From Planifilum fulgidum (GTDB lineage: Bacteria; Bacillota; Bacilli; Thermoactinomycetales; DSM-44946): a stretch of DNA of 64,000 bases. A model generated the notes under the pieces. That model worked only from the letters and a program-made list of their open reading frames with translations. It had not been told where the DNA came from and did not search any database. Positions within the stretch are counted from its first letter, which is position 1. Every line of letters starts with the position of its first letter. A program made the position numbers and the translations under genes. Shown here piece after piece: positions 22,950 to 39,152 of this stretch. The stretch is taken from assembly GCF_900113175.1 (NCBI RefSeq), contig NZ_FOOK01000013.1, forward strand, positions 1 to 64,000. The letters are read 5' to 3'.

Positions 22950-24857
22950 ATGATCCTCTTGCAAGTGAACCAAGTGTCCAAATCCTACGGAGCCCACCCC
23001 GTATTGGAAGAGGTCACCCTGCGGGTGGCGGATAAGGAACGCGTCGGATTGATCGGCGTCAACGGTTCGGGAAAATCCACCTTGCTGAAAATCATCGCTT
23101 CAAAGATCCCCCCCGACAGCGGGGAAGTGCTCATCGCCAAAAACGCCCGGATCGGTTACCTGGCCCAGGACAGCGGCCTCGATTCGGAGCGAACCGTCTG
23201 GGAAGAGGCCCTTGCGGTGTTCACCCCCCTCCGGGAGATGGAAAGGCGGCTTCGCCGGCTGGAGATGGAGATGGGCGACCCGGCATTGATGGCCGATGAA
23301 GAGCGGCACCGGCAGGTGCTGGCGCGTTATGCATCCCTGCAGGAGACCTATGAACAGGCGGGGGGATTCCAATACGAGGCGCGCATCCGCGGAGCCCTGC
23401 ACGGGCTCGGCCTCTCCGACATCGATTGGCACAAAACCCCCGTGCGCGATCTCAGCGGAGGACAGAAAACCCGGCTGGCCCTGGCCAAACTCCTGCTTCG
23501 GGAACCCGACCTGCTGATGTTGGACGAACCGACCAACTACCTGGACATGGATGCCCTCGACTGGCTGGAGCAGACCCTCTCCTCCTATCCCGGGGCTTTG
23601 CTGGTGGTCTCCCACGACCGCTATTTCCTGGACCGCATCGTGGAAACCATATACGAAGTCGACCGGAGGCGCGTCACCCGATACCCGGGCAATTACTCCG
23701 ACTTCGTCCGGCAGAAGGCCGAATGGGTTGCCCGCCAGGAAAAAAAGTACGCGGAGCAGCAGGCGGAAATTCGCCGGATGGAAGAGTTTATCCGGCGCAA
23801 CATCGCCCGGGCCTCCACCGCCAAACGGGCCCAGAGCCGGAAAAAAGCCCTGGAGCGAATGAAGCCCGTCGAACGCCCTCCCAAAGAAGGCCCGCCCGCG
23901 GCCATCCGTTTTGACATCGCCGCCGCCAGCGGAAAGGACGTGCTGGAAGCCCGGGAACTGGCGATCGGATACGATCCGGCCTCCCCTTTGGCCTCCGGTC
24001 TCTCCTTCCGGATTGAAAGGGGGGAGCGGATCGCCCTGATCGGCCCCAACGGCACCGGCAAATCCACCCTCCTGAAGACCGTCGCCGGCCTTCTCCCGCC
24101 CTTGTCCGGCAGGATCCGTTACGGGACGGGAGTGGATCTCGATTATTACGATCAGGAACAACAGTCCTTCAATCCGGAAGCGACCGTTCTGGAAGAAGTG
24201 TGGAACGACTTCCCCTCCCTGGACCGGACGGCCGTCCGTTCCGCCCTCGGCCAGTTTTTGTTCAGCGGCGATGACGTGTTCAAAAAAGTGGCCGATCTGA
24301 GCGGCGGCGAAAAGGCCCGCCTCTCCCTCTGCAAGCGCATGTTGCGACGGGCGAATCTGCTCCTGATGGATGAGCCCACCAACCACCTGGACATGCGGAG
24401 CAAGGAGCGGCTGGAGAAAGCCCTTGCCGAATATCCGGGGACGCTCCTCTTCGTCTCCCACGACCGCTATTTCATCAACCGCCTGGCCACCAGGATATGG
24501 GAAATGACGCCGGAAGGAATCCGCTCGTATGACGGCAATTACGATGCGCTTCTGGAACAGAAAAAACGGCTGGAAGAGCGGCAGGTTTCCCCGGGAGAGG
24601 ACGGCACCCCCCGGCGAAGGAGGGAACCGTCAAGGGAAGTCCGCAAAAGGGAAGAGCGCCTGCGAAAGGAGGAAGCCGCCCGGCTGGAAGCGGAAATTGA
24701 GGCGCTGGAGAAAAAAATACAGGAAATCCAGGAAGCGATGTGCCGGCCGGAGGTGCTCCGGGATCCCGAAAGGATCCGGGAGCTGAAGGGCCAGCTGGAG
24801 GAGCACGAGGAGAGGTTGGCGAAAAAAACGGATCGCTGGGTCGAGTTGGCCGAATGA
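22950..24857 (+). CDS. ABC-F family ATPase (YdiF-like)
   Basis: A 635-residue soluble protein with two ABC domains and no membrane segment, the ABC-F layout of ribosome-associated ATPases acting in translation or antibiotic protection. Domain 1 has GVNGSGKST and LSGGQKTRLALAKLLL with DEPTNYLDMDALDWLE; domain 2 has GPNGTGKST and LSGGEKARLSLCKRML with DEPTNHLDM. The interdomain linker (about 240-310) is charged and helical, and the C-terminal 90 residues form a Glu/Arg-rich coiled coil, as in Bacillus YdiF. ATG 22950 follows GGGAGGAAAG. In Bacillus ydiF also neighbours rex and tatC. Confidence 0.93.
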   Translation: MILLQVNQVSKSYGAHPVLEEVTLRVADKERVGLIGVNGSGKSTLLKIIASKIPPDSGEVLIAKNARIGYLAQDSGLDSERTVWEEALAVFTPLREMERRLRRLEMEMGDPALMADEERHRQVLARYASLQETYEQAGGFQYEARIRGALHGLGLSDIDWHKTPVRDLSGGQKTRLALAKLLLREPDLLMLDEPTNYLDMDALDWLEQTLSSYPGALLVVSHDRYFLDRIVETIYEVDRRRVTRYPGNYSDFVRQKAEWVARQEKKYAEQQAEIRRMEEFIRRNIARASTAKRAQSRKKALERMKPVERPPKEGPPAAIRFDIAAASGKDVLEARELAIGYDPASPLASGLSFRIERGERIALIGPNGTGKSTLLKTVAGLLPPLSGRIRYGTGVDLDYYDQEQQSFNPEATVLEEVWNDFPSLDRTAVRSALGQFLFSGDDVFKKVADLSGGEKARLSLCKRMLRRANLLLMDEPTNHLDMRSKERLEKALAEYPGTLLFVSHDRYFINRLATRIWEMTPEGIRSYDGNYDALLEQKKRLEERQVSPGEDGTPRRRREPSREVRKREERLRKEEAARLEAEIEALEKKIQEIQEAMCRPEVLRDPERIRELKGQLEEHEERLAKKTDRWVELAE

Positions 24858-26920: not shown

Positions 26921-28732
26921 TCACACAGCCTTTCCGCTTTCACTTCCCCTGTGCCGTTCCAAAAACTCGAGGATGCGGCGATACACCCTGATCTCGTTCT
27001 CCTTTTTCGTAAATCCGTGCCCTTCGTCTTCCAGCACGAGATATTCCACGCCAACTCCCCTTTTCTTCAGGGCGGCGACGATTTGATCCGACTCCGCCCT
27101 CACCACCCGGGGATCGTTGGCTCCCTGAATGATGAGCATCGGTTTCTTCATGTTTTTCAGGTACGTGATCGGGGAATCTTCCGTCAGTTTCTCCCTGTTT
27201 TCCACCGGATCGCCGACCAACTGTTTCATCGACGGCTTCCAGAAATCGGGGACCGATTCGATAAAGGTAAACAGATCGCTGGGTCCGAACAGGTCGACGG
27301 CGGCGCGCACGTATTCCGGATGGCGTCCGGCCAGAAGCAGGGTCATATAGCCGCCGTAGCTGCCGCCGACGACAAACAGCTTATCCCGCTCCGCGATCCC
27401 CTGCCGAAAGAGCCACTCCATCCCCGCCACACAGTCGAGGCGAGGGCCTCCCCCCCAATCCCTTTCCACCATTTTGCGGAAGCGTTTGCCGTATCCGGTG
27501 CTGCCGCGAAAGTTGGGGGCGAAAATGGTGTAGCCCCGTGCGAGGAGAAACTGGAACAGGGCCCGGAACCGCTTGCGCTCCGCCCACTGGGGACCGCCGT
27601 GGGGCCAAAAGATCGCATACCCGTTGGCCCTCTCCGGCTTGGCCCGAAAGAGGAGGGCCTCGATTTTTAGGCCGTCAAAGGAAGGATAAGTGACCACTTC
27701 GGGCTCCACCATGGCCTCTCTGGAAACGCCCATCACCCGGTTGTCCGTCAGAGCTTCCCAACCGCCGCCCGGCCGTTTCCGGAAGAGGTTCGGGGGAACA
27801 GTGGCACCGCGCCCGAGCAGATAGAGGGTGCCGCTCTCGGCGACGTGCAGCTGATCCACGATGTCCACGGGCAACGAAACGGGAACGAGGGTCCGGTCAT
27901 CGGGCCGGAAGGCGTAAAGCCTGTCCGACACCCCTTTGACGGTCGAAATGTACAGCGTGCGGCTCGGGGCGTGCCATTTCAGATGCCTGGCCTCTTCCCG
28001 CTCAAAGGTGACCACGGGGGCAAACTCCCGCTTTTCAAGGTCAAAGCCGGCCACGTATGCGTACTCTTCGCCGTAGTCGGTCACAAAATACAAATGATTC
28101 TCACTCGTGTAGACGATGCTGGATACGATGTGCGCCTCCTCCGGATTCGGCGTGAGGGAAACCGCCTCTTCCCCCTTCTTGACAAAGCCGCACTGGTGCG
28201 TGTTGCTGAGCAACTTCACCCAGGCGAAACCGGTCTCCTTCGGACTTGCGGCAAGCAAATGTACCGGGGCATCCTGGCCGACGAGCAGGGTTTCGCATTT
28301 CCTTTTCGCCAAATCGTAGCGGCAAATATTCAAATAAGTGGGATTCCCCCGGCTCGTGTGGTAGTAGATGCGCTCCCCGTCTTCCAACAGATGGACGGCA
28401 AAAAATTTCTCCCTCGCCTTCGGTTCCAGAAGGGGGAGGGGATTTCCCCCTTCCGGCGGCAGTGCGTAGATGTGGAAGTTCTCGTCCCCGTCCCGGTCAA
28501 AACCGGCGATGATAAAGCGCCGTTTCGGATCGATCAGGACATATCCCACGTCCTGATCGACGGATGTCAACGGATAAGGATATGTTCGGGGCAGGTCCAT
28601 GGCCCACAGATTGAATTTTCCGCCCAGATTGCCGGCGAAGACGAGCTGTTTTTCGTCCTTGCTGACGGCGAAAAGCGTGATGTCGAAGGTGCGGAAAAAC
28701 TGCTCCGCGGCAGGCTTGGGAAACGAAAACAT
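26921..28732 (-). CDS. S9 family peptidase (acylaminoacyl peptidase type)
   Basis: A 603-residue cytosolic serine peptidase with an N-terminal beta-propeller (about 15-340; repeated DGERIYY/LYFVTDYGEE-like blades) and a C-terminal alpha/beta hydrolase domain (about 345-600). The nucleophile is the Ser in GGSYGGYM (near 457), the acid is in GANDPRV (near 540) and the histidine is in DEGHGF (near 572). The loop WPHGGPQ supplies the oxyanion hole. Such enzymes remove short or N-acylated residues from peptides. ATG 28732 follows GGAG by seven bases; longer frames lack an SD. No signal peptide is present. Confidence 0.92.
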   Translation of the reverse strand: MFSFPKPAAEQFFRTFDITLFAVSKDEKQLVFAGNLGGKFNLWAMDLPRTYPYPLTSVDQDVGYVLIDPKRRFIIAGFDRDGDENFHIYALPPEGGNPLPLLEPKAREKFFAVHLLEDGERIYYHTSRGNPTYLNICRYDLAKRKCETLLVGQDAPVHLLAASPKETGFAWVKLLSNTHQCGFVKKGEEAVSLTPNPEEAHIVSSIVYTSENHLYFVTDYGEEYAYVAGFDLEKREFAPVVTFEREEARHLKWHAPSRTLYISTVKGVSDRLYAFRPDDRTLVPVSLPVDIVDQLHVAESGTLYLLGRGATVPPNLFRKRPGGGWEALTDNRVMGVSREAMVEPEVVTYPSFDGLKIEALLFRAKPERANGYAIFWPHGGPQWAERKRFRALFQFLLARGYTIFAPNFRGSTGYGKRFRKMVERDWGGGPRLDCVAGMEWLFRQGIAERDKLFVVGGSYGGYMTLLLAGRHPEYVRAAVDLFGPSDLFTFIESVPDFWKPSMKQLVGDPVENREKLTEDSPITYLKNMKKPMLIIQGANDPRVVRAESDQIVAALKKRGVGVEYLVLEDEGHGFTKKENEIRVYRRILEFLERHRGSESGKAV

Positions 28733-28796
28733 CAAACATCTCCTCTCCTTCCCGGAAATCGGCGAGGGACGGGATCGGGCGCCACTGCCGCTCTTC

Positions 28797-29753
28797 TCAC
28801 CCGCTTCTTCCCGCCGTTTCCAGCTTATGCAAAAAACGTTCCTGCCGGACGGCCAGCTCCTGGGCTTCCTCGATGCCGACCTCCCGAAAGGAGACATGAC
28901 CGCCCGGGGGCAGTTGGGCCAGTTTCGGAAGATCCACCGAGATCACGGCGGCAATCTTGGCATAGCCTCCCGTCGTCTGACGATCCGCCATCAAAACGAT
29001 CGGCTGACCGTCCGCCGGCACCTGGACCGCGCCCATGGAGACGGCGTCGGAAAGGATGTCGGCCGACTCCCGGTGTTCGATTTCGGGTCCCCGCAGGCGG
29101 ATTCCCATTCGGTCGGACTGGGCCGTCACCTGATATTCACTCCCGAGGAAAGTCCGGATCCCCTTGGGTGTGAAGGCTTCTTCCTGGGGACCGAGAATGA
29201 CGCGGACTTCTTCCTTCCTGTTCCATCCGGGGATCCAATCGGCGGAAAGGCTCCGGCCAATGCGGCGGGAAGCCGCTCCTCCCTCTCCCCGCTCCAAGAC
29301 GTCCCCCCGACGGAGAGGTCTTCCCTTTATGCCTCCGATTTTCGCCCGGACATAGGTGGATTTGCTCCCCATCACGTTTTCACCGCAAATCCCGCCGGCC
29401 ACCGCCAAATAAGCCCGCATTCCGCTCAGCGCGCCCCGGAAGCGGAGAACGCTGCCCCGCTCCAGCACAAAGCTTTTCCACAGGGGGGCGGGAACGCCGT
29501 CCACCGTCGGCCCCAGATCGGCCCCGCACAGAGCAACGACGATATCATCCAATGCCTTGAGTTCAGGGCCGATCACCGTCATCTCCAGTCCCGCCTCCCC
29601 CCTTCGGTTGCCCACGAGGCAGTTGGCCACCTGCAGGGAAAAGGCGTCCATCGCCCCCGCCACCACCATGCCGGTGTGCTGGAATCCGATTCGTCCCAAG
29701 TCTTGCACAGTGGTCAACAGTCCCGGTTTCAACACTTTCAGCGCAGGTTTCAT
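28797..29753 (-). CDS. pxpC: 5-oxoprolinase subunit PxpC
   Basis: A 318-residue protein of the biotin-dependent carboxyltransferase-like (KipA) family, with the conserved start VLKPGLLTTVQDLGRIGFQ, the AMDAFSLQVANCLVGN segment and the C-terminal MADRQTTGGYAKI. Together with PxpA and PxpB it hydrolyses 5-oxoproline to glutamate with ATP, removing a damage product of glutamine. Last gene of the pxpB-pxpA-pxpC operon. The ATG at 29753 was chosen because the family motif begins directly after it; the frame to 29783 adds ten unmatched residues. Confidence 0.93.
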   Translation of the reverse strand: MKPALKVLKPGLLTTVQDLGRIGFQHTGMVVAGAMDAFSLQVANCLVGNRRGEAGLEMTVIGPELKALDDIVVALCGADLGPTVDGVPAPLWKSFVLERGSVLRFRGALSGMRAYLAVAGGICGENVMGSKSTYVRAKIGGIKGRPLRRGDVLERGEGGAASRRIGRSLSADWIPGWNRKEEVRVILGPQEEAFTPKGIRTFLGSEYQVTAQSDRMGIRLRGPEIEHRESADILSDAVSMGAVQVPADGQPIVLMADRQTTGGYAKIAAVISVDLPKLAQLPPGGHVSFREVGIEEAQELAVRQERFLHKLETAGRSG

Positions 29754-29848
29754 CGTTTCCGATCCAATCCTTTCTCGGGTCAAAGGGGTAGGCTGTCGGA
29801 TGCCGGCAGGGAGGCCGCTTCGTTACTTCCCGGCCCCTCCGGCCCGGA

Positions 29849-30631
29849 TCAGGACGGACCCAGCCACTCGCCGACCCTTCGGATCTCCACGCCCTCCGAC
29901 TGCAACGCTTCCCGGAGCCGACGGGCGAAGGCCAAGGCCTGGGGTTCGTCCCCGTGCACGCAGACGGTGTCGGCGCGGATGGAAATTTCCGTCCCATCCA
30001 CGGCGGTGACTTTTCTCTCCTTTACCATGCGAAGAACCCGTCTCACCGCCTCCTCCGGATCGCGGACCATCGCCCGGGGATCGGTGCGGGGGGTCAGCGT
30101 GCCGTCCGGTTGGTACGTCCGGTCGGCAAACACCTCCTCCGCCACCGTCAGCCCGGCGGCCCTTCCCGCCTCCACCAGGCGGCTTCCCGCGAGCCCAAAC
30201 AGAATCAGTCCGGAATCGACGGCGGCCACCGCTTCGGCAATGGCGGAAGCAATCCGCCTGTCCCGGCAGGCCATGTTGTACAGGGCGCCGTGGGGCTTCA
30301 CGTGTTGCAGCCGCTTTCCGCAGGCGCGGGCAAAGGCGGCGAGAGCTCCCACCTGATACAGCGTCATGTTGTAGACGTCCTTCGGCTCCACCTCCATCCG
30401 CCGGCGGCCAAATCCCAAAAGGTCCGGCAGACCGGGATGGGCTCCCAGTCCGACTCCCTTCTCCGCGGCGGCCTTCACGGTGCGCCCCATCACGTTGTGG
30501 TCTCCGGCGTGATAACCGCAGGCGATGTTGGCGGACGTGACAAACCGGAGTACCTCCTCATCCCTGCCGAGGGTGTAGGCGCCAAAACTCTCTCCCAGAT
30601 CCGAATTCAAGTCCACCATCCAACGGCTCAT
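29849..30631 (-). CDS. pxpA: 5-oxoprolinase subunit PxpA (LamB/YcsF family)
   Basis: A 260-residue subunit of the bacterial 5-oxoprolinase. Family signatures are VDLNSDLGESFG at the N-terminus, SANIACGYHAGDHNVM (about 33-48), GLGAHPGLPDLLGFGRR, KPHGALYN (about 113-120) and the C-terminal VCVHGDEP. ATG 30631 follows GGAGGG and shares the ATGA overlap with the end of pxpB, so the two are translationally coupled. Confidence 0.96.
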   Translation of the reverse strand: MSRWMVDLNSDLGESFGAYTLGRDEEVLRFVTSANIACGYHAGDHNVMGRTVKAAAEKGVGLGAHPGLPDLLGFGRRRMEVEPKDVYNMTLYQVGALAAFARACGKRLQHVKPHGALYNMACRDRRIASAIAEAVAAVDSGLILFGLAGSRLVEAGRAAGLTVAEEVFADRTYQPDGTLTPRTDPRAMVRDPEEAVRRVLRMVKERKVTAVDGTEISIRADTVCVHGDEPQALAFARRLREALQSEGVEIRRVGEWLGPS

Positions 30632-31365
30632 GCTTCTTCTCCCTCCGTGCAATCCCGGATTTCCACCAAATATGTCCCCCGGCGCACCTGTTCCTCGATC
30701 TCCCGGTATTCCTCCTCACCCACCGGCCGAAAGCGGAGCCGATCCCCCATCCGGAGCAGGATCGGCTCCTCCCGGTGCGGATCGTAGAGCCGGACGGGGG
30801 TCCGTCCGATCAACCGCCAGCCCCCCGGCGTCTCCAGGGGATACACGCCGGTCTGGTTTCCGGCGATCCCCACCGATCCCTCCGGAATGCGCGAACGCGG
30901 ACGCTCCAGCCGGGGCGCGGCGATTTTCCGCGACATCCCGCCCAGATAGGGGAATCCCGGAACAAAGCCCATCATGTACACGAGATAATCGCGTCCACTG
31001 TGCAGGCGGATCACCTCTTCCGGCGTCAGTCCGTTATGCTCCGCCACGAAGGACAGATCCGGCCCCCACTCCCCGCCGTACACCGTCGGCAGCACCACCA
31101 GCCGCGCGGGAGGAAGCCGAACCCGGTCCAGATCGGCCGCCAGGTCCGACAAGCGCTTCGCCAGCTCCTTATACCGAATCACATGGGGTCGATAAAAAAC
31201 GGTGACCGATCCATAGGCGGGCACCCATTCAACAACGCCGGGAGGAGCATTCTTCTCCAGATGGTGACAAAAGCCGCGCACCCTGCGGTGAACGTCCGGG
31301 TGAATCGCATCCCCCAGCCGCACCGTCACCGCCGTATCTCCCAGCGGTTTCACGGACAGGATCAC
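30628..31365 (-). CDS. pxpB: 5-oxoprolinase subunit PxpB (KipI-like)
   Basis: A 245-residue member of the KipI/PxpB family. Landmarks are the start VKPLGDTAVTVRLGD, LPTVYGGEWGPDL (about 92-104), YMMGFVPGFPYLGGM (about 131-145), and SVGIAGNQTGVYPLETPGGW (about 165-184), the last two lining the cyclophilin-like cavity. GTG 31365 sits eight bases behind AAAGGGGGAG. First gene of the operon. In Bacillus the homologue KipI also inhibits the sporulation kinase KinA, but PxpB is the better name here because pxpA and pxpC follow. Confidence 0.94.
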   Translation of the reverse strand: MILSVKPLGDTAVTVRLGDAIHPDVHRRVRGFCHHLEKNAPPGVVEWVPAYGSVTVFYRPHVIRYKELAKRLSDLAADLDRVRLPPARLVVLPTVYGGEWGPDLSFVAEHNGLTPEEVIRLHSGRDYLVYMMGFVPGFPYLGGMSRKIAAPRLERPRSRIPEGSVGIAGNQTGVYPLETPGGWRLIGRTPVRLYDPHREEPILLRMGDRLRFRPVGEEEYREIEEQVRRGTYLVEIRDCTEGEEA

Positions 31366-31736
31366 CGCGCTTTCTCCCCCTTTCGAAAATGGCCCCGACA
31401 GCCCGCGGGCCAACCGCCGCGGACGGAAAACCCTCCGACCTGCGCGGCGGCAATCCCGCGAACACGTTTCATTGATTCTACTTTTCTCTGTGATTCCCTT
31501 TCCCCTTCAAAGGAGAGCAATCTGTAAATTCTTTATGAATCCCGCCAAATCAACTTGCCGATTATCTTTTCCCCTGTATTATCCCCCGCCAGCGGACGGA
31601 TGAGGTCACAAAACCGGAATGCCCGGCCTAAGATGCCGTAAAAAACCCCACCGGTTCCTTTCCAGCCGGCGCCGTCCATCTTCCGGATCGCCGCATGCAA
31701 CGCAGTAAAAAAGGCCGGCTTCACCGGTCCTTCTCG
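31366..31736. other. Intergenic region upstream of pxpB without recognisable gene
   Basis: The 371-bp gap holds only short open frames with no SD, no known motif and no strong hairpin with a T-run. A 63-codon frame at 31533-31724 on the minus strand has a mixed composition and was not accepted as a gene. The pxp promoter must lie here but no clear -35/-10 pair was seen. Confidence 0.5.
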
Positions 31737-33690: not shown

Positions 33691-35859
33691 TCACCCGCCT
33701 CTTCCCTCCTTCGCAACGGACCACTCCCGGAAGGCGATGATCAGGAACGGGACGACGGCGTAGATGATGGCCGTCGCGGCGGAGACCAGCCCCGAATCGT
33801 TCAGGGCCAGGGCGGCAAGAGCCCCTGCGCCGATGGAAGCGAAGCCGTTGTACAGCTTCGGATAATGTTCCTTCATCCACTTCAATCCCCGGAACGGTCG
33901 GTACGAAATGAGGGTCAGGACAAACAGGGAGGTGAGCAGCACCTTCCCCCAGGAAGAGACGCGCAACAGGCGAAGGTTAACCTCCAGCTTGCGCATGATG
34001 ATATGGGCGATCTCATCCACATCCCCCGCCATCAGGTAGGAAAGGGCCCGGCCGATGTGGGAGGGTTGGTCGTCAAACAGCAAATTCACTCCGATCAAAA
34101 GTCCCGCCCCCAGAAAGAGGAAAACCAGGGCGATCCAATACCATTTTTCTTGTTGATTCCGGCGGAAAAACCGAAAATAAGCGGTGCCAAAACCGACGGC
34201 GGAGGCCAGGGCTCCTCCCGCATTGGTCCCCCAGAAGGGAGCCGCAAAAAAGAAGACCAACGCCAAAAAGAAAAGGGCCACCGGCAACCGGCTCCCGCCC
34301 TGCCTGCGCTCCAGCCAGGCGGCACAGGACAGAATGGCCGAACCGAGAACGATTCCCATATACTCGTTGCCGATTCCGTAATAGCGGGCTCCCTTGATGG
34401 GATCGTAACCGAGAAAGGATTTTTCAATCAGCGTCCCCCCGAAGATCCCGTCGAGGACAACCGGGACGCATCCCAAAATCCCCAACGCCAACAGCAGGGG
34501 GACAACGGGCAGCCGCCGCAATGCCGCCGTCAAAAACAGGGCGAGGGTCCCCACCGTCAACAGAAACCCCCAGGTGTGCGGAATCGACGCCCCGGAAATC
34601 AAAAGGAGAAGAAAGGGGAGAACAAGCATGGCGATCAACAGGCCCTGGATCGCTTCCCAAAAACGGTGCCATCTGCGCCAAAGGATCACGAGACTGCTGA
34701 GCAAAACGGCAATCTGAAACACGATAAAGGCGGAAATGACTGAAGCGCGCATCCCGTAAATCGTGTGGACGCGCTCCATTTCCCGGAAAAATTCATCGAT
34801 CGATCCGTCGACCACCCGCATCGGCCGCCCCAGCATCGGGTCCGGAAGCGGGATGCCGAAGGCGTCGAGGACGGTGGGGGCCAGGTCCACGTTGCTGACG
34901 AGGCCCTCCCGCCGGGTAGTGGGGGAATAAAGAAGGCCGCGTTCGCCCCCGGGCCGATACCAGATCAGCGGCGCCAGCACTTCCTTTCCCCCGGGGTCGG
35001 CGGATGATCCGGGGGATACCAGCACCAATTGCCGCTCCGGCGTCAAGAGCGCCATCACTCGCCCCAGGAAGCGGTCCATCTCCTTCAGCACTTCCAGGCG
35101 GACCGCCCGATAACGATCGGTGGCCATCTCGGCGGATATGCGGTCCAACCGGTAGAGATCCCCAAGCTCAACCACGACGAGGGAGGGAGCTTTCCATTTC
35201 TTAAGGCAGTCGAGCAAATAGGAATAATTCGTCTTCACGCCGAAAGGGCGGCGGGAATCGACGAGCAGCGTTTCCCGCCCGATGCTCCCCACGGGAGTGA
35301 TCCCCCGGGCGTCCATGGTCAGAAAGGGGGCCCAGCGCACGGCCGTCTCCCCTTCATCCAGGTTGCCAAGCACCGCCGTGCTCCGTCCCGCCCGGCGGAG
35401 CGCTTCCCCCAAGGCGCCGGGGGACATCCGATAATTTCCCGCTTCATTCTCCCTTATGTAGCGGTGGACCGCCGGATAAACCACCGCCCGATCCGGCGGT
35501 ATTAAACCCGTACGCATGGCGTAACGATCTCCCGCCAGCTCCCCGTCGATCCGTTCCCCCGTCTGGTAAAAGGTCGCATCCGTCGGCGCGGAGATCCGCG
35601 TCCCCGCCCCCATGGTGGCGTAAATATGGGCATCCCATTCCCTTTTGCCGGTCTTGAGATTCATCCCGGCCACGGCTCCCCGCTCCAAGAGAGCGCGAAA
35701 ATGGGGAAGGGACTCCTCCCTCAGGTCGGACAGCGTCAGGCCGTTGATGATGATCATCCAAATCTGACGGGGCGAATCGGCCTCCTCAGCCCGAACCGCA
35801 CCGCAGGAAACCGACCAGATGAGTTGCGTCACCAACGCAATCAGCCAAAGGATCCGCAC
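33691..35859 (-). CDS. Polytopic membrane protein with extracytoplasmic alkaline-phosphatase-fold domain
   Basis: The 722-residue protein starts with a signal-like helix (about 1-22). Residues 30-365 look like an AlkP/sulfatase-superfamily fold: IWMIIINGLTLSDL, LVVVELGDLYRLD, LVLVSPGSSADPGG and VSNVDLAPTVLDAFGIPLPD, the last two resembling the metal-binding and C-terminal motifs of this superfamily. However, the usual nucleophile segment is not obvious. About ten membrane helices follow (375-715). Such a layout suggests transfer or removal of a phospho-group on a lipid or wall polymer outside the membrane. No operon partner: a gap with DnaA boxes lies upstream. Not otherwise recognised. Confidence 0.7.
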   Translation of the reverse strand: MRILWLIALVTQLIWSVSCGAVRAEEADSPRQIWMIIINGLTLSDLREESLPHFRALLERGAVAGMNLKTGKREWDAHIYATMGAGTRISAPTDATFYQTGERIDGELAGDRYAMRTGLIPPDRAVVYPAVHRYIRENEAGNYRMSPGALGEALRRAGRSTAVLGNLDEGETAVRWAPFLTMDARGITPVGSIGRETLLVDSRRPFGVKTNYSYLLDCLKKWKAPSLVVVELGDLYRLDRISAEMATDRYRAVRLEVLKEMDRFLGRVMALLTPERQLVLVSPGSSADPGGKEVLAPLIWYRPGGERGLLYSPTTRREGLVSNVDLAPTVLDAFGIPLPDPMLGRPMRVVDGSIDEFFREMERVHTIYGMRASVISAFIVFQIAVLLSSLVILWRRWHRFWEAIQGLLIAMLVLPFLLLLISGASIPHTWGFLLTVGTLALFLTAALRRLPVVPLLLALGILGCVPVVLDGIFGGTLIEKSFLGYDPIKGARYYGIGNEYMGIVLGSAILSCAAWLERRQGGSRLPVALFFLALVFFFAAPFWGTNAGGALASAVGFGTAYFRFFRRNQQEKWYWIALVFLFLGAGLLIGVNLLFDDQPSHIGRALSYLMAGDVDEIAHIIMRKLEVNLRLLRVSSWGKVLLTSLFVLTLISYRPFRGLKWMKEHYPKLYNGFASIGAGALAALALNDSGLVSAATAIIYAVVPFLIIAFREWSVAKEGRGG

Positions 35860-35987: not shown

Positions 35988-36159
35988 AAATCCACAGCCG
36001 CATCCACAGGGTTATCAACAATTTTATCCACAATCAGCGGGGGATGTGGACAGTGAAGACCGCTTTATCCACAACGAGGGGGAAGATGGGGACCGAAGCC
36101 CGCCGCTTCGCCTTCAATTATCCACGAAAATATCCACACCAATGTCCACAATATCCACA
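35988..36159 (+). repeat. DnaA-box cluster downstream of tsaD
   Basis: Within 172 bp there are two perfect TTATCCACA boxes (36024-36032, 36065-36073), four with one change (36012-36020 TTATCAACA, 36118-36126 TTATCCACG, 36130-36138 and 36151-36159 ATATCCACA) and four with two changes (35988, 36000, 36045 on the minus strand, 36142). All but one point the same way. Such density is far above chance. dnaA and dnaN are not here, so this is not oriC; it resembles the non-origin DnaA-box cluster known near gcp (tsaD) in Bacillus subtilis. It fills the 399-bp gap. Confidence 0.85.
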
Positions 36160-36173
36160 AAACCCTGAAAGGG

Positions 36174-36199
36174 CAAAAAAAAATCCACCTTTCGGTGGA
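36174..36199 (-). terminator. Terminator of the tsaE-tsaB-rimI-tsaD operon
   Basis: A TCCACC/GGTGGA stem (36184-36189 with 36194-36199) with a 4-nt loop is followed on the minus strand by a T-run of about ten. Confidence 0.85.
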
Positions 36200-36258: not shown

Positions 36259-37290
36259 CTACCCCAACGGCAGATTGGCCGCGGCGTTCAGATCCAAGCC
36301 GGCGGTTTGCCCGTCCCACAGGCGATACGTCCCGGCCGCCGCGATCATCGCCGCGTTATCCGTACACAGAACGGGGGGCGGAATCCGCAATCGGATCCCC
36401 TCCTCGGCGCAACGCTTCGCCAAGGATTCCCTCAGGCCGCTGTTGGCGGAAACCCCTCCCGCCAAAACCAACTCGGTCACCCCCGTTCTCTTGACGGCGG
36501 CGATCGCCTTTTCCGTAAGCACTTCCACAACGGCTTCCTGAAAGCTGGCGGCCACATCGGCGGGGTTCGCCTTTTCCTCTTGCCGGATCAGGTTGCCCAC
36601 GGCCGTCTTCAGGCCGCTGAAGCTGAAGTCCAGGGAGTCCCGATCCAGCCACGCCCGCGGCAGGGAATACACCGGTTTTCCCTCCCGGGCCAGCCGGTCA
36701 ATGTGCGGTCCCCCGGGATAGGGAAGGCCGAGGAGTCTGGCCACCTTGTCGTAGGCCTCGCCGGCCGCATCATCGCGGGTTTTTCCCAACCGTTCAAACC
36801 GGTTGTGGGCGGGCATGTAAATCAGCTCGGTGTGGCCACCGGAAACGACCAGCGACACCAGCGGAAAACGAAGGGGTTCCACCAGCTGGTTGGCGTAAAT
36901 ATGTCCCGCGATGTGGTGCACGGCCACCAGCGGGATGCCCGCGGCGAAGGAAAGGGCCTTCGCCGCGGAGACGCCGATCAGAAGGGCTCCCACCAGTCCC
37001 GGCCCCTGGGTGACGGCGACGGCGGACAAATCCCCGAGCCGCACCCCGGCCCGGTCCAGGGCCTCCTGCAGAATCGCCGTGATCCGTTCCACATGGCGCC
37101 GGGAAGCCACTTCGGGAACGACTCCCCCGAACCGGCGGTGAAGATCCATCTGGGAGGAGATCACGTTGGACAAAAGCTCTCTGCCATCGGCCACCACCGC
37201 CGCCGATGTCTCGTCACAGCTGGTTTCGATTCCCAGAACCAGGCATTTCCCCTTGATCGGGGGATTGCCGTGTTTTTTCGTCGTTTCCAT
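36259..37290 (-). CDS. tsaD: tRNA N6-adenosine threonylcarbamoyltransferase TsaD
   Basis: The 343-residue enzyme transfers the threonylcarbamoyl group to A37 of tRNAs that read ANN codons, working with TsaB and TsaE. The ASKHA fold is shown by [28 protein letters not shown], the metal ligands in HHIAGH (His126, His130), VSGGHTELI and the C-terminal [10 protein letters not shown]. Length is normal; the start at 37290 overlaps rimI by 77 bp and has only a weak SD, so the true start could be slightly later. Last gene of the operon. Confidence 0.97.
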
Positions 37291-37741
37291 GCAACGTCAC
37301 CCACATGATAATGGCATCTTCCTGATTGTCGGTGTAGTAGCGGGGGCGGATTCCCGAAGGCTCGAAGCCCATTTTCTTGTACAGCCGCTGGGCAATCTTA
37401 TTGGAGACCCTCACTTCCAGGGTCATTTTGCCCGCCCCCCATTCCTTGGCCTGGCGCATCACATAGGAAAGGAGGGCTTTGCCCAATCCCCGGCCCCGGA
37501 AGTTGGGATGGATGGCGATATTGGTGATATGGGCCTCGTCCAGGAGGAGCCACAAACCGCAATACCCGACCACGCGGCCGTCCACCTGAATCACGGAGTA
37601 CCGGGCGAACCGATTGTGAACCAATTCGTTGTAAAAAGCCTGGCGCGGCCACGGCGTGGGAAACGATGCCCGCTCCACCTCCATGATCACCGGCAGGTCG
37701 GACAATTTCATCGGCCGGAACACGATATGCGGTCGATCCAT
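37214..37741 (-). CDS. rimI: Ribosomal protein S18-alanine N-acetyltransferase RimI
   Basis: A 175-residue GNAT acetyltransferase. The acetyl-CoA site reads [14 protein letters not shown] (about 81-94), preceded by [10 protein letters not shown] and followed by [15 protein letters not shown] and [15 protein letters not shown], the RimI pattern. It acetylates the N-terminus of ribosomal protein S18 (and possibly others). It lies between tsaB and tsaD as in Bacillus; the C-terminal 25 residues are encoded in the overlap with tsaD and go beyond the conserved domain. Confidence 0.93.
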
Positions 37742-37763: not shown

Positions 37764-38483
37764 TCACTCCGTACTTTTCCCGTTTCCCCGGCGGGACAAC
37801 CATTTCACCTCCGCCTCGGCCAGCTGCAGGTAGTTGGGGGCGAAATCCGGCCCTTCCCCCTTTCCTTCCCTTTTCCAGCGCTCCAGGGCAAGGCGGCCGA
37901 GACAAGAGGCGCGGGGAATGTTTTCCGGAGGCAATCCGAAAAAGGCGTTTTCCCCGAGGGCATCCCTGATCCGTTCCCGGAAGCGGTCGACATCGTCCCC
38001 CAAAAACAGGACCGGCCCTTCCCCCTCCAGTTCCTTCAGCCACTCGTCGACGGAAACGACCCGCTCCTTTTTTACGGGGCGCACTTCCCCGGACTCGCCC
38101 CCCTGAAACAGACCGGTGTAGATTCGATCCCGGCGGGCGTCAAACAGGGGGGCGATCTTCCCGCCAAACCGCATCCCGTTCATCGCCAGGACCGCCAGCG
38201 TGGATATGCCGATCAGGGGAAGGTTGCGGCTCCAGGCCATGGTTTTGGCCGTCGTCACGCCGATTCGCACTCCGGTGTAGGAGCCGGGGCCGGCGGCGAC
38301 GGCGATGAGATCCAGATCGGAAAAGGTGAGCCGCAGTTCCTCCAGCAGGCGGGCCACCATAGGCATCAGCCGGACCGAATGATCCTTGCGCAGATTGGTG
38401 GTCACCTCGCCGAGAATGCGATCCTCCTCCAGCAGGGCCACCCCCATCACCAGCGTGGAGGTGTCGATGGCCAAGACCTTCAT
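37764..38483 (-). CDS. tsaB: t6A synthesis protein TsaB
   Basis: A 239-residue inactive paralogue of TsaD that scaffolds the t6A complex. Features are [32 protein letters not shown], the conserved AAGPGSYTGVRIGVTTAK (about 62-79) and LIGISTLAVLA. ATG 38483 forms an ATGA overlap with the tsaE stop and is preceded by GGAGTTGAGG, which decides it against the frame to 38504. Confidence 0.96.
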   Translation of the reverse strand: MKVLAIDTSTLVMGVALLEEDRILGEVTTNLRKDHSVRLMPMVARLLEELRLTFSDLDLIAVAAGPGSYTGVRIGVTTAKTMAWSRNLPLIGISTLAVLAMNGMRFGGKIAPLFDARRDRIYTGLFQGGESGEVRPVKKERVVSVDEWLKELEGEGPVLFLGDDVDRFRERIRDALGENAFFGLPPENIPRASCLGRLALERWKREGKGEGPDFAPNYLQLAEAEVKWLSRRGNGKSTE

Positions 38484-38941
38484 TCCCGCCTCAACTCCCT
38501 GCAAAGCCTGCGCACCCGCTCCACGTCCGGAGCAAAAGTGATCAGGCGATCACCGGTCTCCCCGACGGTGAGAGCGATGCACACGGTGTGATCGGGAAGG
38601 AGTTCCTTGATCCGGTCGGCCCATTCCACCAGCGTGACACCGTCCCCGAAAAAAAACTCGTCCCACCCCAGATCCTCATCGGGGGATTCCAGGCGATACA
38701 CATCCATGTGATAAAAGGGGAGACGGCCGCGGTATTCCTTGATGATGGTGAAGGTGGGGCTGTCCACCGCTTCCTCCACCCCGAGACCCTTGGCGATTCC
38801 CTGGGCGAAGGTGGTTTTGCCGGCCCCCAGATCCCCCACGAGGGCCAGCACATCGCCGGGCTCCAGCAGCTCAGCCAGGCGGACGCCCAGCCGCCGCGTC
38901 TCTTCTTCATTTTTCGAAACAAACCGACAAGCTTCCTGCAT
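38480..38941 (-). CDS. tsaE: t6A synthesis ATPase TsaE
   Basis: A 153-residue ATPase needed for turnover of the TsaD-TsaB complex. It has the P-loop [19 protein letters not shown] (about 32-50), [10 protein letters not shown], the FYHMDVYRL strand and the VEWADRI motif near the C-terminus. An ATG GTC ATG doublet allows a start at 38947 or 38941; the second was taken for its better SD spacing. First gene of the tsa operon. Confidence 0.95.
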
Positions 38942-39043
38942 GACCATCACCCGCCCTGATAACGGTCGTCTCGAAAGGGATGCGGCCATCCCTCGGGGGA
39001 ACGCGATACTTGCCGCGGCCATTACCATTTTTCCCATAGAAAA

Positions 39044-39069
39044 GAATAAGACCGCAGCCGAACGCTGCG
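39044..39069 (-). terminator. Terminator of the tRNA operon
   Basis: CGCAGC/GCTGCG stem (39053-39058 with 39064-39069) with a 5-nt loop, followed on the minus strand by GTCTTATTCTTTT. Confidence 0.75.
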
Positions 39070-39078
39070 ATCCGTCCG

Positions 39079-39152
39079 TGGAGCGGGTGATGGGAATCGA
39101 ACCCACGCATCCGGCTTGGAAGGCCGGTGTTCTACCACTGAACTACACCCGC
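39079..39152 (-). tRNA. tRNA-Gly (TCC)
   Basis: Complete cloverleaf with anticodon loop CTTCCAA, T-loop GTTCGATTCC and encoded CCA. Last tRNA of the operon. Confidence 0.96.

Follow-up and report, generated by a model that had tools for sequence, protein, structure and literature searches.

One of the eight high-affinity DnaA-binding regions of Bacillus subtilis lies between gcp (tsaD) and ydiF (PMC4447404). It is region 4 among the top DnaA-binding regions of that species, described as "downstream of gcp; downstream of ydiF" and holding 10 sites (PMC4447404 Table 1), with an apparent dissociation constant (Kd) of 0.15 uM for ATP-DnaA and, at low concentration, a 16-fold preference for ATP-DnaA (PMC4447404). 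Strains of B. subtilis lacking the six clusters outside the replication origin, oriC, initiate replication early, and restoring one cluster gives partial relief (PMC5295017; PMC13220808). Here, we analyzed a 64,000-nucleotide stretch of the Planifilum fulgidum genome (contig NZ_FOOK01000013.1, positions 1 to 64,000; the window), in which a preliminary description had noticed a dense cluster of boxes for DnaA, the initiator of chromosome replication, beside the tRNA-modification gene tsaD, at positions 35988–36159, and had pointed to a B. subtilis precedent at gcp; region 4 is that precedent. We consider it likely that the P. fulgidum cluster corresponds to the one at gcp-ydiF in B. subtilis and, lying close to the origin, restrains initiation as a cooperative DnaA sink.

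The cluster (35988..36159, + strand) comprises 11 TTATNCACA-like sites, counted by a simple mismatch rule rather than with a measured matrix: two perfect boxes (36024 and 36065), four with one mismatch (36012, 36118, 36130, and 36151), and five with two mismatches (35988, 36000, 36045 in reverse, 36142, and 36143 in reverse), with the boxes at 36142 and 36143 overlapping on opposite strands. The earlier tally was right for the perfect and one-mismatch boxes and one short for the two-mismatch boxes (four, vs five here), and its statement that nearly all boxes point the same way agrees with the 9 of 11 found on the + strand, that is, oriented against tsaD. Boxes follow one another every 12 bp in the sub-array at 35988–36032, which includes the pair TTATCAACA-nnn-TTATCCACA (36012..36032, + strand), 12 bp apart and equivalent to the first two boxes of a phylum-wide triad. 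A lone perfect box, TTATCCACA (36065..36073, + strand), stands 41 bp beyond the preceding one, and a four-box sub-array (36118..36159, + strand) has spacings of 12, 12, and 9 bp. This last sub-array contains a 12-then-9 triad (36130, 36142, and 36151) in which the middle box, ATGTCCACA, is weakened; the triad geometry is kept in the window at 36130–36159, and its first half only at 36012–36032. As in B. subtilis, the cluster lies downstream of tsaD toward a convergent ydiF and outside oriC, with a similar number of boxes (10 sites there, 11 here at two or fewer mismatches). It differs in that a sulfatase-like gene and ~9 kb of other genes precede ydiF, and in that its boxes include several degenerate ones (ATATCCACA, TTATCAACA).

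Such a density of boxes is rare. Across the whole window, three or more boxes with at most one mismatch per 172 bp were found only in stretches overlapping the cluster, and when 20 genomes of 3.39 Mb were simulated from the window's dinucleotide content, the densest 172 bp held two or three such boxes, vs six in the cluster. The pattern WTATNCACA matched 75 times in the P. fulgidum genome (vs 55 for a reversed control), with four of these matches in the cluster (36024, 36065, 36130, and 36151) and a comparable group at oriC only. A paired-box pattern, ATCCACAN{2,32}ATCCACA, matched five times (control, 0): three times in the cluster, once at oriC upstream of dnaA, and once beside rlmH. A genome scan, which the preliminary description had proposed, accordingly found dense clusters to be uncommon. 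Exact boxes are not over-represented in the 3.38-Mb draft genome (41, vs 38 for the reversed control), so that general box richness of the genome does not account for the cluster. The DnaA encoded in the genome carries PF08299, the box-binding domain, and dnaA and oriC are on another contig (G000:C5), consistent with the earlier remark that no replication gene is near.

Comparison of the window with two other genomes of the genus revealed boxes that are 96%–98% identical and spacers that are 36%–64% identical, a contrast that, judged from sequence, is the footprint of selection on the boxes. The cluster combines three traits of a gcp/ydiF-type DnaA-box cluster: box density outside oriC, a place between tsaD and a convergent ydiF, and selection on the boxes. 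To assess how far this arrangement extends, the region downstream of tsaD was compared among 81 genomes of the class Bacilli and 80 named loci, with a cluster scored as present at four or more boxes within 700 bp downstream of tsaD. In Bacilli, the cluster was found near tsaD in 54 of 81 genomes (26 of 39 sampled families), within 5 kb in nine, and was missing from 18; in other classes of the phylum it was present in 25 of 38 genomes and 22 of 33 families. Boxes thus occur beside tsaD in close and distant relatives alike, as the preliminary description had anticipated. Enrichment is confined to the first 500 bp after tsaD, where the mean is 4.6–5.2 boxes and 62%–64% of Bacilli loci have at least four; other 500-bp bins average ~0.5 boxes, and four or more boxes occur there in mostly 0%–2% of loci, with a maximum of 8% in a few downstream bins that include displaced clusters. 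Upstream and farther bins are at background, and we rejected the idea that box enrichment is a property of any site near tsaD. The tandem pair TTATNCACATTATNCACA (at most one mismatch) occurs 116 times in 77 non-Bacilli genomes. Of these occurrences, 43 lie downstream of tsaD at a distance of 1 kb or less, and 42 of the 43 are oriented against it. This depth of conservation is new; conservation across the phylum was not found reported in the literature searched, with subscription papers mostly outside it, so that priority is uncertain.

The position of the cluster is defined by two genes rather than one. A convergent ydiF accompanies the cluster at 67 loci, and at every one of them the boxes sit in the interval bounded by the 3′ ends of the two genes, tsaD and ydiF. 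Where the gap between these genes exceeds 1.5 kb, the cluster is nearer tsaD at 24 loci and nearer ydiF at 10, the latter mostly of the Paenibacillus type. The suggestion that the cluster has stayed with tsaD through rearrangement consequently needs amending: it has been kept within the tsaD-ydiF interval, and not always beside tsaD. Among 22 relatives with nearly closed genomes, coordinates place tsaD at a distance of 0.07–0.25 genome lengths from dnaA in 21, and the exception (G093) is without the cluster.

Box spacing is also regular. Distances between same-direction boxes peak at 9, 12, 21–22, 31–33, 42–43, 51–55, 63–64, 74–75, and 86 bp, a period of ~10.7 bp. With one cluster taken per family (47 families), the phasing amplitude was 0.45 vs a null maximum of 0.15, which serves only as a guide since families are not fully independent; persistence of the signal under this sampling led us to reject close relatedness as its source. 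For comparison, the amplitude was 0.26 in the oriC-side clusters of 21 relatives, and Paenibacillus-like loci alone gave a weaker 10.6-bp signal (0.28). The 12-then-9 triad, with consensus gTTATCAACAgacTTATCCACATTATCCACAg, was present at 53 of 199 loci and was by far the commonest spacing. Phasing of this kind suggests that DnaA would form an ordered complex along one face of the helix, as opposed to occupying scattered independent sites.

Based on these features, several DnaA molecules would occupy the co-directional, helically phased boxes on the same DNA face and form a cooperative nucleoprotein complex, mainly of ATP-DnaA. Presumably duplicated fairly soon after oriC, the cluster would rise in copy number following each initiation, and the extra copies would withdraw free DnaA and delay the next initiation. 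It may act jointly with oriC and with a similar site upstream of rlmH, and would not act through regulation of tsaD. DnaA binding and a preference for ATP-DnaA at the P. fulgidum cluster are predicted from the in vitro data for B. subtilis, and titration from the deletion of six clusters in that species.

The genes beside the cluster form a tsa operon on the − strand, read head to tail in the order tsaE (38480..39106, TIGR00150), tsaB (37764..38504, TIGR03725), rimI (37214..37741, TIGR01575), and tsaD (gcp; 36259..37290, 343 amino acids, TIGR03723, 437 bits), followed by a terminator and then the cluster. The intrinsic terminator (36175..36199, − strand) consists of the hairpin TCCACC-GAAA-GGTGGA (36184–36199) and a T run, separates tsaD from the cluster, and is conserved in both congeners. 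The next gene past the cluster (33691..35859, − strand) encodes a 722-amino-acid membrane protein with weak similarity to sulfatase/phosphodiesterase domains and no NCBIfam match; this is the sulfatase-like gene referred to above. At 40 loci the cluster is accompanied by a gene for a relative of this protein, and a frequent order is tsaD, cluster, 722-amino-acid protein gene, ydiF. A ydiF-type ABC-F ATPase gene, identified by tblastn and Pfam, lies ~11 kb from the cluster (22953..24854, + strand) and is convergent with tsaD as in B. subtilis. Between it and the sulfatase-like gene, at 26921–31413, we noted 5-oxoprolinase-type genes (KipI/KipA/LamB-YcsF-like) and an S9-type peptidase gene, named by eye from translations alone. 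GC skew on the + strand is negative over nearly the whole window; transcription of tsaD is therefore probably co-directional with replication, and a fork would be expected to pass tsaD ahead of the cluster.

Could the cluster instead have arisen by chance, or be neutrally inherited alongside tsaD? We regard this as extremely improbable. The position of tsaD is itself conserved, but boxes have been kept where spacers have not, the cluster occurs in 48 families with differing neighbors, and simulated genomes never attain its density. Chance clustering is already refuted by the simulation and the genome-wide scans, and neutral inheritance by the conservation of boxes within the genus. A secondary or former replication origin is very improbable as well. 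Box density is comparable to that of oriC, but the intergenic region has no trio-like trinucleotide run (0, vs up to 6 at the dnaA loci of relatives) and no markedly AT-rich segment for unwinding (GC content no lower than 0.35 in any 40 bp), GC skew does not switch across the window, and dnaA and dnaN are not adjacent, oriC being elsewhere; we rejected this candidate. Better grounded, though still quite unlikely, is DnaA-dependent transcriptional control of a neighbor, either the sulfatase-like gene or the tsa operon. In this window the sulfatase-like gene is co-directional and lies downstream of the cluster, a weak promoter-like match (36050–36021) overlaps the boxes, and some B. subtilis clusters (sda) work at promoters. 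Nonetheless, the gene after the cluster is co-directional at 41 loci and convergent at 36, and the cluster is therefore not tied to any single promoter; where ydiF is convergent, the site is a 3′-3′ intergenic region in which no promoter is necessary. Control of the tsa genes, one of two functions proposed in the preliminary description, found no support: it is unlikely because the terminator intervenes at the operon end and the orientation of flanking genes is not fixed, nor is any promoter geometry conserved. DnaA titration, the other proposed function, is the better of the two.

Resemblance to Escherichia coli elements raises a different alternative. Like the cluster, datA is non-coding and carries multiple DnaA boxes, and it restrains initiation (PMC5295017) as is proposed for the cluster, but it uses IHF, stimulates DnaA-ATP hydrolysis, has other neighbors, and gives no sign of common descent; DARS1 and DARS2 are likewise short non-coding DnaA-box arrays, but they reactivate DnaA. 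A datA-like catalytic element, in which a DnaA oligomer on the phased array would turn ATP-DnaA into ADP-DnaA or exchange nucleotide as DARS does, is unlikely in our view. Its geometry, fixed by the triad and the phasing, exceeds the needs of a sink, the B. subtilis site strongly prefers ATP-DnaA, and the position is origin-proximal in nearly closed relatives. However, datA requires IHF, which is missing from B. subtilis, a species in which nothing is known to regulate the nucleotide state of DnaA (PMC13220808); phased boxes would suit a cooperative sink too. We also entertain, tentatively and as the lesser possibility, a broader proposal in which the tsaD-ydiF cluster would be a phylum-wide ancestral cis-element of replication control and the Bacillota counterpart of datA, with the phased 12-9 triad nucleating a defined ATP-DnaA oligomer that would be sequestered or inactivated under regulation.

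Several observations weigh against a conserved DnaA sink at tsaD. About one-third of the sampled families are without a cluster there, and named Clostridia-type loci, many of them from gut Lachnospiraceae, mostly lack it (four or more boxes in 2 of 38, or 5%), so that loss appears common in places. In Thermoactinomycetales, as in several further lineages, a co-directional gene lies downstream of the cluster, and local transcriptional control is conceivable there. Support from binding and phenotype, moreover, comes from B. subtilis and would extend to P. fulgidum by analogy.

Clusters of this kind are not limited to tsaD. In the P. fulgidum genome, a smaller tandem box triad (G000:C5:39537–39567; L335:5538–5567) is located between an htrA-type protease gene and rlmH, upstream of rlmH and ~30 kb from dnaA, which is the place of the B. 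subtilis yydA (rlmH)/yyzF cluster (region 8, PMC4447404 Table 1), an element of the same kind at a locus separate from gcp-ydiF. Among 30 sampled Bacilli, 57% have four or more boxes within 500 bp upstream of rlmH; one of these genomes (G018) has none in its tsaD region. Two genomes of one family (f13; L361 and L362) have 10–15 boxes upstream of rlmH. We therefore rejected uniqueness to tsaD, as the rlmH upstream region is equally enriched and recurrent pairs occur near fliS, comF, and hpf/secA. These recurrent tandem pairs were seen in other Bacillota at L316, L318, and L324 (fliS/flgN-like), L317 and L322 (comF, glnHPQ-like), and L320 and L331 (hpf/secA), and the comF-flagellar-hpf-secA region may hold a third conserved cluster. 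An exact variant, TTGTCCACATTATCCACA, recurs in genomes of family f25, with G044:C1:767679, G112:C1:1782611, G060:C7:80081, and G075:C23:42994 among the sites listed; the copy in G112 is near hpf/secA, and the variant may therefore be a lineage-specific conserved pair.

How DnaA is controlled in bacteria without Hda, SeqA, and IHF, including whether its nucleotide state is controlled at all, is an open question, and work on the six non-oriC clusters of B. subtilis has been confined to that species, with disagreement over their importance. Rules of spacing and orientation could not be derived from the few B. subtilis regions (PMC4447404), and the more than 100 natural clusters gathered here constitute a data set for defining which box spacings and orientations are read by DnaA. 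Because the same place and a recurring geometry are found in about two-thirds of sampled families, selection appears to maintain the cluster, which at tsaD has probably long served as a conserved brake on replication and is unlikely to be a local peculiarity.
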